Below are positions 15,195 to 19,594 of a DNA stretch of 37,100 nucleotides, one piece after another. The stretch lies in contig JAUVZL010000025.1 of assembly GCA_030602565.1 (NCBI GenBank), positions 1 to 37,100 on the forward strand, written 5' to 3'. Within the stretch, counting starts at the first letter, position 1. Each line of letters begins with the position of its first letter. Under the pieces are notes generated by a model. That model saw only the letters and a list, made by a program, of their open reading frames with translations. It was not told the DNA's origin and did not search any database. Source of the stretch: Candidatus Stahliibacteriota bacterium. Lineage in GTDB: Bacteria; Hydrothermota; Tepidihabitantia; SM23-42. Both the position numbers and the translations under genes were made by a program.

Positions 15195-15222
15195 TTGACT
15201 GATTGAGGAAAATGACTATACT
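15195..15222 (+). promoter_or_regulatory. Leaderless promoter of the rnf operon
   Basis: TTGACT at 15195-15200 and TATACT at 15217-15222, 16-bp spacer. The ATG at 15230 begins seven bases after the -10 box. The frame is open from a TTG at 15203, but that codon lies inside the promoter spacer. Confidence 0.7.
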
Positions 15223-15229
15223 AAACCCC

Positions 15230-16522
15230 ATGTCAAAAGGGTTTGTCGGTGGTATCCATCTTCCAGAAAACAAACTTACTGAAAGCCTTGCTATTGAAGT
15301 CATGCCAGCGCCGAAGCGGGTATACATACCATTTGCTCAACATACTGGCAAGCCAGCTAAACCCCTTGTACAAAAGGGTGACCTTGTGAAAATCGGTACG
15401 AAAATTGGCGAAAGTGAAGGTTTCATTTCTGCTTCAACCCATGCCAGCATTTCAGGTAAAGTATTGGATATTAAGCAACATGCGCATCCTGTTTTAGGTT
15501 CATCCCAATGCTGCATCATTGAATCAGACGAAACAGAAGACTGGGCTTCAGGTGTTAAAGAAAAACATGACCATGAAAATCTTTCAAAAGAAGAGCTCCT
15601 CAGTATTATTAAAGATGCTGGTATCGTGGGTCTGGGTGGTGCAGCATTTCCGACGCACGTAAAACTGTCACCACCTCCAGACAAGCCAATCGATTATTTG
15701 CTTATCAATGGTTGTGAATGTGAACCGAGGCTAACTGCTGACCATAGGTTGATGCTTGAGTACCCAGTTGGAGTTATTGAAGGTGCCAAATTGTTTCAAA
15801 AAATTCTCAATGCTGAACATTTAATATTCTGTGTCGAAGATAATAAAAAAGATGCAGCCAAGATTTTTGCCCGTGAAAATGAAGAAGTTAGGGTATTAAA
15901 CACAAAATATCCCCAGGGTGCTGAAAAACAGCTAATAAAAGCGGTGCTCAATCGTACTGTACCCAGAGGAGGATTGCCCATGGATGTGGGCTGTGTGGTG
16001 CAGAATGTGGGTACGTGTTATGCTACATTTCAGGCAGTAAAGTTCAGGAAACCATTGATCGATCGGATCGTGACTGTAACGGGTAATGGGGTTAACCAAT
16101 CCAAGAATTTGCTCGTTAGAATCGGTACGCCGATAATTGAGGTGATTAACTTCTGCGGTGGTTTTGTCGATCAACCCAAACAGATTATTTTTGGCGGGCC
16201 AATGATGGGGATTTCCCAATATGCTGAGGATGTACCTGTAATAAAGGGCACCTCAGGTATCTTAGTTACTAAAGAGGCTAGTATTTATGAGGAGGGACCA
16301 TGTGTACGCTGCGCTAGTTGCATTGATGTATGCCCCATGGGACTGATGCCGACCGAGATCTACAAACTCGTCCAGAACAAAAAATTTCTAGCATCAAAGG
16401 AGTATGGTGTGCTTGATTGTATCGAATGTGGCTGTTGTGCTTATGCTTGTCCTTCGAAGATACCGCTTGTGCACTATCTGAAATATGGCAAGAGTGAGGT
16501 CTGGAGATTATCAAACAAATGA
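15230..16522 (+). CDS. rnfC: Rnf complex subunit C (Fe-S, NADH-side)
   Basis: A 430-aa subunit of the membrane Rnf complex, which couples electron transfer between reduced ferredoxin and NAD+ to ion pumping; RnfC carries the NADH/flavin side. The start FVGGIHLPENK and the barrel-sandwich segment around LVKIGTKIGESEG are typical, as is the glycine-rich GLGGAAFPTHVKL. Two four-iron clusters are bound by CVRCASCIDVCP (C358, C361, C364, C368) and CIECGCCAYACP (C397, C400, C403, C407). The ATG at 15230 was chosen over upstream in-frame codons because those fall within the promoter. It overlaps rnfD by 4 bp. Confidence 0.95.
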   Translation: MSKGFVGGIHLPENKLTESLAIEVMPAPKRVYIPFAQHTGKPAKPLVQKGDLVKIGTKIGESEGFISASTHASISGKVLDIKQHAHPVLGSSQCCIIESDETEDWASGVKEKHDHENLSKEELLSIIKDAGIVGLGGAAFPTHVKLSPPPDKPIDYLLINGCECEPRLTADHRLMLEYPVGVIEGAKLFQKILNAEHLIFCVEDNKKDAAKIFARENEEVRVLNTKYPQGAEKQLIKAVLNRTVPRGGLPMDVGCVVQNVGTCYATFQAVKFRKPLIDRIVTVTGNGVNQSKNLLVRIGTPIIEVINFCGGFVDQPKQIIFGGPMMGISQYAEDVPVIKGTSGILVTKEASIYEEGPCVRCASCIDVCPMGLMPTEIYKLVQNKKFLASKEYGVLDCIECGCCAYACPSKIPLVHYLKYGKSEVWRLSNK

Positions 16523-17496
16523 AAGATTTGTTGATTGTTTCTGCGTCACCCCATATCAGAGGTAGACTCGATATTTCATTGGCAATGAAGGCGGTTATCC
16601 TTGCCCTTTTGCCAGCCTGGGTGTTCAGCGTCTATATATTTGGCTGGCGCGCTTTGCTCATAACAGTCATGAGTATTGTCTCCTGCATGATTAGTGAAGC
16701 AGTTATGCAAAGGATGTTGGGAAAGAAGATTACCTTAGATGATGGCAGCGCAGCGCTCACTGGCATATTGCTAGCCTTTAATCTTCCACCTGGCGTACCG
16801 CTCTGGCTGCCAGTTGTCGGTAGCGTTTTTGCAATTGTTTTTGCCAAGCAGCTTTTCGGTGGTCTGGGTTACAATTTCATCAATCCAGCACTTGCTGGCC
16901 GCGCGTTCTTAATGACTTCGTGGCCGTCTTTTATGACCAAGGCGTGGCTGGTGCCTACGGGCAGTACCTTATCAGGTATTGATAGTATCACGAGCGCTAC
17001 GCCTTTAACCCTGCTTAAAAACCCGGCAAATTTCGGTCCGCCAGAAATCATTATTCAGCGACTCAATGAAATGTCAACGATAAAGAACCTTTTTATTGGC
17101 AAAGTTGGAGGGTGCCTAGGTGAAACATCAGCGCTCCTTTTGCTTATTGGCGGTTTATTCTTGATAATCGTCGGTATCGTGGACTATCGCATTGTTACGG
17201 GATATTTGGTGAGTTTTGGTGTGCTTGCGCTTATCCTGCCCACTAAGGCGAACTTACCATTCCATCTTTTCTCAGGTGGTTTATTTCTTGGTGCCTTTTT
17301 CATGGCAACTGATTGGGTAACTTCGCCGATAACCAAGAAAGGACGGTGGATCTTCGGCATTGGCTGCGGAGTCCTTACCGCAGTCATACGGATATGGGGA
17401 GGTTATCCTGAGGGTGTGTCTTATTCAATCCTTCTCATGAATGTGTTTACACCGGTAATTGATCGATTCACAAAAGAAAGGATTTTTGGTGGGTGA
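16519..17496 (+). CDS. rnfD: Rnf complex subunit D (membrane, covalent FMN)
   Basis: A 325-aa integral membrane subunit with about nine or ten hydrophobic helices. The covalent FMN attachment site is seen as DSITSATP (residues 155-162), in which the threonine of SAT normally carries the flavin. Its conserved GYNFINPALAGRAFL segment is the family signature shared with NqrB. The ATG overlaps the stop of rnfC by 4 bp, so translation is coupled. A 21-bp gap separates it from rnfG. Confidence 0.95.
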   Translation: MKDLLIVSASPHIRGRLDISLAMKAVILALLPAWVFSVYIFGWRALLITVMSIVSCMISEAVMQRMLGKKITLDDGSAALTGILLAFNLPPGVPLWLPVVGSVFAIVFAKQLFGGLGYNFINPALAGRAFLMTSWPSFMTKAWLVPTGSTLSGIDSITSATPLTLLKNPANFGPPEIIIQRLNEMSTIKNLFIGKVGGCLGETSALLLLIGGLFLIIVGIVDYRIVTGYLVSFGVLALILPTKANLPFHLFSGGLFLGAFFMATDWVTSPITKKGRWIFGIGCGVLTAVIRIWGGYPEGVSYSILLMNVFTPVIDRFTKERIFGG

Positions 17497-17517
17497 ACAG
17501 AAGAAGGGGGTGAAATC

Positions 17518-18414
17518 ATGACCAGTGCCAGATCCATAGTGGTAACACTTTTTATTGTTGCGCTCGTTTGTTCAGTCATTTTGTCTTTTGTATACTCGTA
17601 TACTGCACCGCGTATTGAAGAAACCCAAAAAGAATTGACCCTTGCCGGTCTAAAAGAAGTAATAATCGCTGAAATATTTACTCCAGTAGTACCAGATACC
17701 GTGTGGAAGGCTATTGACTCCACGCAAAATGTTGTGGGTATTGTTTTCCGCGTCTTTCCACAGGGCTATAGTGGTCCCATCCCACTTATGGTGGGTCTTG
17801 ATCTAGAAGGAAAAATCACTGGTATTAGGATTGCCAGTGCCGCTGAAGGACTCAAGGAGACACCGGGCTTAGGCGTCAAGATTATTGAGCTTGACTTTCG
17901 AGAGCAGTTTATTGGCAAAACCCTTGATAATGTTCTTCTAAAAAGGGATGGCGGCGAGATTGACGCGATAACTGCCGCAACAATCTCATCGCGCGCCGTG
18001 TGTAATGGGATAAAACAGGGTATTGAGCAATTCGCCAGTTACTTATGTCCACCACTTGACAAGCGTTGCGTGTTCCCTGATGCCCAAGACTTCATTGAGA
18101 TTATACCAGATACGCTCTGGTATGCACTCGGGGAGAGCGATACTATCGGTATTGTTTTTATCGCAACAACCCAGGGATATGCGGACCAGATTGAATTTAT
18201 TGTTGGCGTAACCATGAAAGGACAAATAACCGGCGTTGAAATACTCTATTCAAACGAGACCCCGGGTATTGGTGAGGTTATAAGAAGTAAGGAATTTCTT
18301 GATTCTTTCAAAGAGAAAATACCTGATGCGATAACCGGCGCAACAGTTTCTTCTAAGGCATTGATCAATGGCGTAAAAGAAAAAGTCGAATGCTATAAGG
18401 ATTATCTAAAATGA
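17518..18414 (+). CDS. rnfG: Rnf complex subunit G with duplicated FMN-binding domain
   Basis: RnfG is a single-helix subunit with a covalent FMN domain on the outer face of the membrane. Here the N-terminal helix (about residues 5-27) is followed by two FMN-binding domains in a row, making 298 aa against the usual ~180-220. Copy one spans about 60-175 with DAITAAT at 149-155; copy two spans about 200-295 with DAITGAT at 270-276. The two copies share phrases such as GIVF...TQGY / FPQGY and GKITGIRI / GQITGVEI. Copy two has the canonical TGAT flavinylation motif and copy one has TAAT. GGGGGTG serves as ribosome binding site. The last 4 bp overlap rnfE. Confidence 0.9.
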   Translation: MTSARSIVVTLFIVALVCSVILSFVYSYTAPRIEETQKELTLAGLKEVIIAEIFTPVVPDTVWKAIDSTQNVVGIVFRVFPQGYSGPIPLMVGLDLEGKITGIRIASAAEGLKETPGLGVKIIELDFREQFIGKTLDNVLLKRDGGEIDAITAATISSRAVCNGIKQGIEQFASYLCPPLDKRCVFPDAQDFIEIIPDTLWYALGESDTIGIVFIATTQGYADQIEFIVGVTMKGQITGVEILYSNETPGIGEVIRSKEFLDSFKEKIPDAITGATVSSKALINGVKEKVECYKDYLK

Positions 18415-19013
18415 AGAAGTCGCAAATTTTCACCCGCGGTTTGATCAAAGAAAACGCTGTTCTCGTTCTGATGATTGGTTTATGCCCGGCACTGGCAGTA
18501 TCTGGCACGGTGCGTGATGCGTTTGGCATGGGACTTGCTGCTACCTTCGTACTCCTTTTTTCTAATATAATAATTTCGATTATGAGAAAGAGGATACCGA
18601 ATGAGGTAAGGATACCGATCTTCATTTTAATTATATCAACTTTTGTAACGATAATTGACTATTTTATGCAGGCATTCCAACCAAGTCTGTATCGTGCCCT
18701 GGGTGTTTTTGTGCCGCTCATTGTAGTCAACTGTATGATCTTGGGTAGGGCTGAGGCTTATGCTTCAAAAAATTCAGTAATTAATTCAGCACTTGATGGC
18801 CTTGGGGTTGGTTTGGGGTTCACCCTTGCACTGACGGTCATGGGTGCGATAAGAGAAATTCTTGGTAACGGTACTTTTTTGGGTATGGCAATATTTGGTG
18901 AAGGGTTTAAGAATGCGCCGGTTATCTTCATGATACTTCCACCTGGCGCGTTCCTTGTTATTGGTGTCATGAAGGCATTAATAAACAAATATGTCAAAAA
19001 GGAGACACAATGA
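18411..19013 (+). CDS. rnfE: Rnf complex subunit E (membrane)
   Basis: A 200-aa polytopic membrane subunit of the NqrD/RnfE family with about six helices. Family marks include RGLIKENAVLVLMIGLCPALA near the N-terminus and the VNCMILGRAEAYA loop. RnfE and RnfA form an inverted pair that carries an intramembrane [2Fe-2S] centre in the well-studied homologues. Start and stop overlap both neighbours by 4 bp. Confidence 0.95.
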   Translation: MKKSQIFTRGLIKENAVLVLMIGLCPALAVSGTVRDAFGMGLAATFVLLFSNIIISIMRKRIPNEVRIPIFILIISTFVTIIDYFMQAFQPSLYRALGVFVPLIVVNCMILGRAEAYASKNSVINSALDGLGVGLGFTLALTVMGAIREILGNGTFLGMAIFGEGFKNAPVIFMILPPGAFLVIGVMKALINKYVKKETQ

Positions 19014-19594
19014 AAGATCCTGCTTTGATATTTCTTGGTGCTTTCCTGGTCAATAATATCATACTGATGCGTTTTCTTGGCTTATGTCCGTTCTTTGGTG
19101 TTTCTACTGCTGTGGAAACTGCTACTGGTATGGGTATGGCAGTAATATTTGTTATGACCCTTGCTTCATGGATCACCTGGATAGTTTTCAATGTGGTTCT
19201 TTTGCCATTCAATTTAGTATTTTTAAGAACTGCAGTATTTATTTTAACGATCGCTTCACTGGTTCAATTGGTCGAGATGTTTTTAAAGAAATACTACAGA
19301 ACATTATATAATGCAATGGGTATATATCTTCCATTGATTACTACAAACTGTGCAATTCTCGGTATTACTTTCTTGGCTATCGACAATAAGTTTAATTTTT
19401 TAGACAGCACGATTTTTTCCATCGGTACAGGTCTTGGATTTATGGTCGTTATGATTACATTTGCCGCAATCAAGGAGCGGCTCGATCTTGCACCGATAAA
19501 CCCTTCAATAAAAGGTTACCCAATCTCATTTATTGCTGCAGGTTTGATGGCGCTTGCCTTTTTAGGCTTTTCCGGCCTCTTCGGCTTAACCTAA
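19010..19594 (+). CDS. rnfA: Rnf complex subunit A (membrane)
   Basis: A 194-aa polytopic membrane subunit of the NqrE/RnfA family; the typical start segment NNIILMRFLGLCPFFGVST and the loop TTNCAILG are intact. It partners RnfE in the membrane. AGGAGAC precedes the ATG. In the common gene order rnfB comes next, but here the operon stops and a field of palindromic repeats begins within 35 bp, so rnfB must be elsewhere or lost. Confidence 0.95.
   Translation: MKDPALIFLGAFLVNNIILMRFLGLCPFFGVSTAVETATGMGMAVIFVMTLASWITWIVFNVVLLPFNLVFLRTAVFILTIASLVQLVEMFLKKYYRTLYNAMGIYLPLITTNCAILGITFLAIDNKFNFLDSTIFSIGTGLGFMVVMITFAAIKERLDLAPINPSIKGYPISFIAAGLMALAFLGFSGLFGLT

Follow-up and report, generated by a model that had tools for sequence, protein, structure and literature searches.

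In the Rnf complex, RnfG relays electrons between the RnfA/RnfE cluster and the RnfD flavin. In the solved complexes from A. woodii (9eri), C. tetanomorphum (7zc6) and A. vinelandii (8ahx), the RnfG chain has 187-237 residues and consists of a membrane helix followed by an FMN_bind ectodomain. RnfGs with more than one FMN-binding domain, described as multi-flavinylated, were reported in RNF clusters in 2021 together with a proposed second electron path (PMC8238504); the portion of that report drawn on here names no case from WOR-3 and shows no sequence. The statement in the preliminary description that a standard RnfG has one such domain is therefore correct for the solved complexes but not for RnfGs in general. 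Tandem FMN-binding domains also occur in SaFMN3 and CbFMN4 (PMC10339131; 8p2a, 8p2b), which the portion of that paper drawn on here does not present as Rnf subunits. In these two proteins, the domains are more than 80% identical and joined by flexible linkers, and mass spectrometry of SaFMN3 found covalent FMN at all three sites (PMC10339131). NqrC of Na+-NQR is a homologous flavoprotein subunit. Rnf was found in 135 of 181 WOR-3 MAGs in the WOR-3 genome paper, whose main text mentions neither RnfG nor FMN (PMC12542636). In the literature we searched, supplements aside, we found no report of a tandem RnfG in WOR-3, of its internal duplication or of the TAAT habit described below. The kind of protein is already in print; our study adds examples and an origin, not a new concept.

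The window analyzed here is a 37,100-nucleotide stretch of DNA, and the closest named relatives of its source are MAGs of candidate division WOR-3/Candidatus Stahlbacteria. An rnfC-D-G-E-A operon spans 15203-19594 on the forward strand. It contains rnfC (15203..16522, 439 aa; TIGR01945 E 1e-160, over cut-off), rnfD (16519..17496, 325 aa; TIGR01946 E 3.8e-101), rnfG (17518..18414, 298 aa, ATG start), rnfE (18411..19013, 200 aa; TIGR01948 E 4.2e-77) and rnfA (19010..19594, 194 aa; TIGR01943 E 1.5e-72), with rnfG flanked by rnfD and rnfE. These operon partners are also those of the solved RnfGs. The RnfG model TIGR01947 is matched in two stretches (E 1.8e-50; 171.6 bits versus a cut-off of 102). 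The protein is not an NqrC: it scores 45.3 bits with TIGR01938, far under the cut-off of 144, and the operon is rnf. RnfD itself bears a flavinylation-type motif, DSITSAT, read from the sequence. The remaining gene, rnfB, lies on a separate contig (G000 contig 1, 22215-23231; L081 8216-9232, - strand), apart from the operon, and encodes a 338-residue protein in which an FeS domain and several ferredoxin domains in a row are present. Its neighbors, judged by eye from their open reading frames, are an FAD-dependent oxidoreductase-like gene and a small 2Fe-2S protein-like gene.

As in the multi-flavinylated proteins, two FMN_bind domains are located in one chain. Pfam FMN_bind (PF04205) matches the whole RnfG with an E-value of 1.4e-33 in two stretches, 17764-18024 (E 1.5e-16) and 18175-18381 (E 6.0e-16). 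A hydrophobic stretch at about residues 5-28 (17530..17601, limits by eye) forms the single N-terminal membrane helix noted in the preliminary description, modeled at residues 3-48. It is followed by two ectodomain repeats, residues 49-176 (17662..18045) and 184-298 (18067..18411), the second of which matches PF04205 with E 3.7e-16 when searched alone. Aligned over 126 columns (E 2e-24), the repeats share 37% identity, bearing out the claim that the two domains of this 298-residue chain are homologous; this level of identity and an arrangement conserved in relatives exclude chance as the source of the repeat. The whole-chain model has a pLDDT of 91.1 and a pTM of 0.60, so that each domain is well modeled and their mutual placement is unsure. 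In the model, an N-terminal helix leads into the RnfG fold, as RnfG requires. Residues 1-177 match the A. woodii RnfG (9eri_G) with Z 16.1, rmsd 2.4 and 171 aligned residues, and the solved RnfGs match residues 1-179 with Z 14.9-16.1. Unlike in the solved chains, which match one repeat, the ectodomain is repeated in the window's RnfG.

Structure prediction of the second half had been named beforehand as the refuting test, and it found the FMN fold. Residues 211-292 of the whole-chain model match the crystallized FMN domain 8p2b (Z 10.2, rmsd 1.6, 79 aligned). Modeled alone, domain 2 has a pLDDT of 89.8 and a pTM of 0.82; among solved structures it is most similar to RnfG chains (114-115 residues aligned, Z 12.9-13.4), including 8ahx_G with Z 13.4 and all 115 of 115 residues aligned. 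The isolated domain matches 8p2b with Z 10.1 and soluble NqrC structures with Z 9.8-10.5. An ordinary extension without the FMN fold is ruled out by the PF04205 match and by the full-length match of the model to RnfG. Sequence and model agree that the protein is an RnfG with two complete predicted FMN-binding domains, as originally proposed. The flavinylation motifs, attachment sites of the ApbE type read from the sequence, are DAITAAT at residues 149-155 (17962..17982) and DAITGAT at residues 270-276 (18325..18345), and close relatives show them at the same positions. They do not head the domains, as had been stated; each lies toward the C-terminus of its domain, directly before the last helix (modeled at 155-175 and 276-292).

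The two-domain RnfG is not unique to the window's genome. A profile of the tandem protein, searched against 147 WOR-3 genomes, matched 115 of them, about 109 strongly, and in 44 of the 147 a single frame encodes two FMN_bind domains (rows judged by eye in both counts). The tandem form is found in 18 of 23 genomes of the window's family (f1), all four of f2 and seven of eight of f4, two of the latter with an in-frame TGA. The others belong to f29 (two), f28 (one), f30 (four), f26 (five) and f17 (three). Two more genomes are doubtful: G027, in which the gene is apparently split across two contig ends, and G019 (L207 2157-2990, - strand), in which an in-frame deletion spanning roughly residues 143-169 removes motif 1 and keeps motif 2. 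The G019 deletion may be genuine or may stem from faulty assembly. We retrieved and checked the open reading frames of all tandem and doubtful genomes other than G079. The other strongly matching WOR-3 genomes appear to have a single domain. Outside WOR-3, open reading frames with at least two FMN domains lie beside Rnf genes in several groups among 80 relative loci: Syntrophomonadaceae (L113, L131), Youngiibacter (L119), Erysipelothrix (L165), Proteiniclasticum (L173), a spirochaete (L120) and uncultured Clostridia (L129, L150). Two further loci, L136 and L177, have such frames with no Rnf neighbor seen. In L119, L165 and L173, the reading frame upstream of the two-domain RnfG, an RnfD by eye, has a C-terminal FMN_bind domain, and the domain 1 motif of the RnfG is not matched by our search pattern.

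Two complete FMN-binding domains in the chain naturally lead to the prediction of a second covalent, extracytoplasmic flavin. We consider it probable that the ectodomain was duplicated within the gene, that both sites carry FMN and that domain 2 is an added electron carrier on the outer face. In this mechanism, the genome's single ApbE flavin transferase (318 aa, contig 11), whose N-terminus by eye resembles a lipoprotein signal, would attach FMN to Thr155 and Thr276. Domain 1, beside the membrane helix, would keep the ordinary RnfG role of electron relay between the RnfA/RnfE iron-sulfur center and the RnfD flavin. Domain 2, with its own covalent FMN, may store an extra electron or hand electrons to some acceptor. 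The presence of ApbE and rnfB in the genome, selection on domain 2 and the conservation of site 2 count for this explanation. The loss of site 2 in two f30 proteins and of motif 1 in G019 counts against it, as does the lack of a conserved neighbor, paired-CXXCH cytochrome or other FMN_bind protein that could act as acceptor. The unsure mutual placement of the domains in the model and a free tree that does not unite domains 1 and 2 of f1/f2 also count against it. The electron partner of domain 2 is its weakest step. If both sites are flavinylated, the outer face of this Rnf would have one redox center more than the solved complexes. WOR-3 also offers a natural series of one-domain RnfGs, two-domain RnfGs, a loss of site 1 (G019) and losses of site 2 (L196, L197), which would permit a direct test of the effect of the extra flavin.

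A narrower form of the two-flavin explanation is a bifurcated path, in which domain 2 leads electrons from Rnf to a dedicated extracytoplasmic acceptor. Such a path was proposed in 2021 for multi-flavinylated RnfGs (PMC8238504), and domain 2, at the chain's free end, is suitably placed for it. However, FMN_bind matches in the 96% complete genome are confined to the two stretches of RnfG, with no second FMN_bind protein, and no paired-CXXCH cytochrome was found in it. No acceptor gene is conserved beside the operon among the 22 loci compared. We consider the bifurcated path rather doubtful.

The same lack of a conserved partner or acceptor gene is also what would be expected if only domain 1 were flavinylated and working, with domain 2 serving for structure or docking and keeping its motif by descent. 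In two of six f30 proteins (L196 2275-3246, - strand; L197 2139-3092, + strand; genomes G126 and G127), the long C-terminal region is indeed retained without a motif. We nevertheless regard this alternative as improbable, since site 2 is kept across several families. We compared 45 tandem proteins, that of the window and those of WOR-3 loci taken by region. Site 2 is SGAT in 23 of them, TGAT in 20 and TGAS in one; none is found in L070, which is cut off by its contig end. The form [TS]GA[TS] is thus kept in 44 of 45. In an alignment of 24 tandem proteins, GAT at site 2 is found in all rows, and both Thr155 and Thr276 are invariant. The dN/dS of domain 2 is 0.11-0.18, compared with 0.07-0.15 for domain 1, in six non-independent pairs among genomes G000-G003 of the window's genus (by a simple counting method, with high dS in some comparisons). 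These low values indicate that domain 2 is under purifying selection and is kept by it.

The preliminary description raised the opposite alternative: because the first motif deviates (TAAT), only one site may be flavinylated. Only domain 2 would then bear a working flavin, and domain 1 would be a spacer or poorly flavinylated. In the same 45 proteins, site 1 reads TAAT in 31, TGAT in nine (f2 is among those with GAT), SGAT in two and TSAT in one. The pattern is unmatched in two: L065, which reads TAST, and L207, which lacks the site. The canonical motif is thus found at site 1 in 11 of 45, versus 44 of 45 at site 2. Section 8 of a review (PMC12052999) describes a Gly-to-Ala substitution in the motif of the FMN-containing fumarate reductase of K. 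pneumoniae that lowered flavinylation to ~50%; replacing the terminal Thr of the same motif with Ala abolished it. The G019 protein, with motif 2 and no motif 1, points in the same direction. However, about half of the flavinylation remained after the Gly-to-Ala change, and in 35 single-domain WOR-3 open reading frames the sole site is TAAT in 13, SAAT in three, TGAT in 11, TSAT in three, SGAT in one and TQAT in one, with no site found in three. TAAT or SAAT is therefore the only flavinylation site in 16 of these 35. The commonness of TAAT in single-domain WOR-3 RnfGs marks it as a habit of WOR-3 RnfG, not a result of decay after duplication. The 80 relative loci have 73 single-domain frames, three WOR-3 loci and some neighboring non-RnfG frames included; the only TAAT among them is that of L107, a WOR-3 locus. 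The argument from TAAT to a single flavinylated site is accordingly weak, and TAAT as a dead site is not upheld; it may lower the efficiency of flavinylation. Since Thr155 is also invariant, and domain 1 is the better conserved of the two (averaging 65% identity to the window's sequence across 19 rows, versus 59% for domain 2), a flavin on domain 2 alone is quite improbable.

The two-flavin explanation includes a duplication, and its traces differ between families. The second domains of f1 and f2 retain the stretch preceding the FMN_bind core (PDTLW...GIVF) typical of single-domain WOR-3 RnfGs, and the 37% identity between the window's two repeats extends over this stretch. We compared profiles of 35 single-domain WOR-3 ectodomains and of 58 non-WOR-3 RnfG ectodomains. 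The WOR-3 profile outscores the other on 13 of 14 f1/f2 second domains (L044 is the exception), with 84.8 versus 77.1 bits for domain 2 of the window, and its alignment begins at position 5-12 of 134. In all six f4 second domains tested, the non-WOR-3 profile scores higher and the match begins at 40-42 of 134. These scores and start positions speak for an internal duplication of the RnfG ectodomain in f1/f2, and in f4 for a minimal FMN domain added by fusion. With its repeats only 37% identical and its place in an Rnf complex, the window's RnfG differs from SaFMN3 and CbFMN4. It is a new member of the reported multi-domain RnfGs, arisen here probably via duplication of the RnfG ectodomain. Domain trees separate the second domains of f1/f2 (support 97-99) from those of f4 (95-99). 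The larger tree has 131 rows and 123 columns, uses 16 of the 80 relative loci and omits nine close-relative loci; the tree used for the AU test has 65 rows, with L062, L063 and L120 left out. In the free tree, domains 1 and 2 of f1/f2 are not together, and a single origin of the second domains is likewise absent. The AU test did not reject either domains 1 and 2 of f1/f2 as one clade (p 0.146) or a common origin of the second domains of f1/f2 and f4 (p 0.162). Given the latter value, separate origins for f1/f2 and f4 are favored, not shown.

In two f4 genomes of different genera, G042 (L068 5316-6287, - strand) and G030 (L069 3004-3969, + strand), RnfG domain 1 is separated from FMN domain 2 by one TGA, in the frame of both. 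The TGA is located within an identical 13-base element, TTCTTGACTGACT, and the FMN domain downstream is intact in both genomes. Among the eight f4 genomes searched, the element is present as a single copy in G042 and in G030, at this position only, and is absent from the six others; a reversed control pattern occurs twice in G030. In G042, a CTG directly after the stop is the only in-frame start-like codon within the next 150 bases, and in G030 there is an additional in-frame ATG 75 bases past the TGA. Selenocysteine at this position is rejected, as SelB was not found over the cut-off in the seven f4 genomes searched, including G042 and G030. SelB is present in the window's own genome. By eye, single folds (no shuffles) gave no clear RNA stem common to the two downstream regions. 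UGA readthrough, restart at the CTG or a nonsense change common to the two MAGs are all possible. A more far-reaching reading is that WOR-3 RnfG gained a second flavin domain repeatedly, and that in f4 the second flavin is optional through UGA readthrough or CTG restart; we consider it very unlikely. If true, f4 could produce RnfG carrying either one flavin or two, which would set the outflow of electrons from the complex at its outer face. The gene order of f4 is also distinct: in L064-L070, rnfCDG lies apart from rnfEA, whereas f1 and f2 have a contiguous rnfCDGEA.
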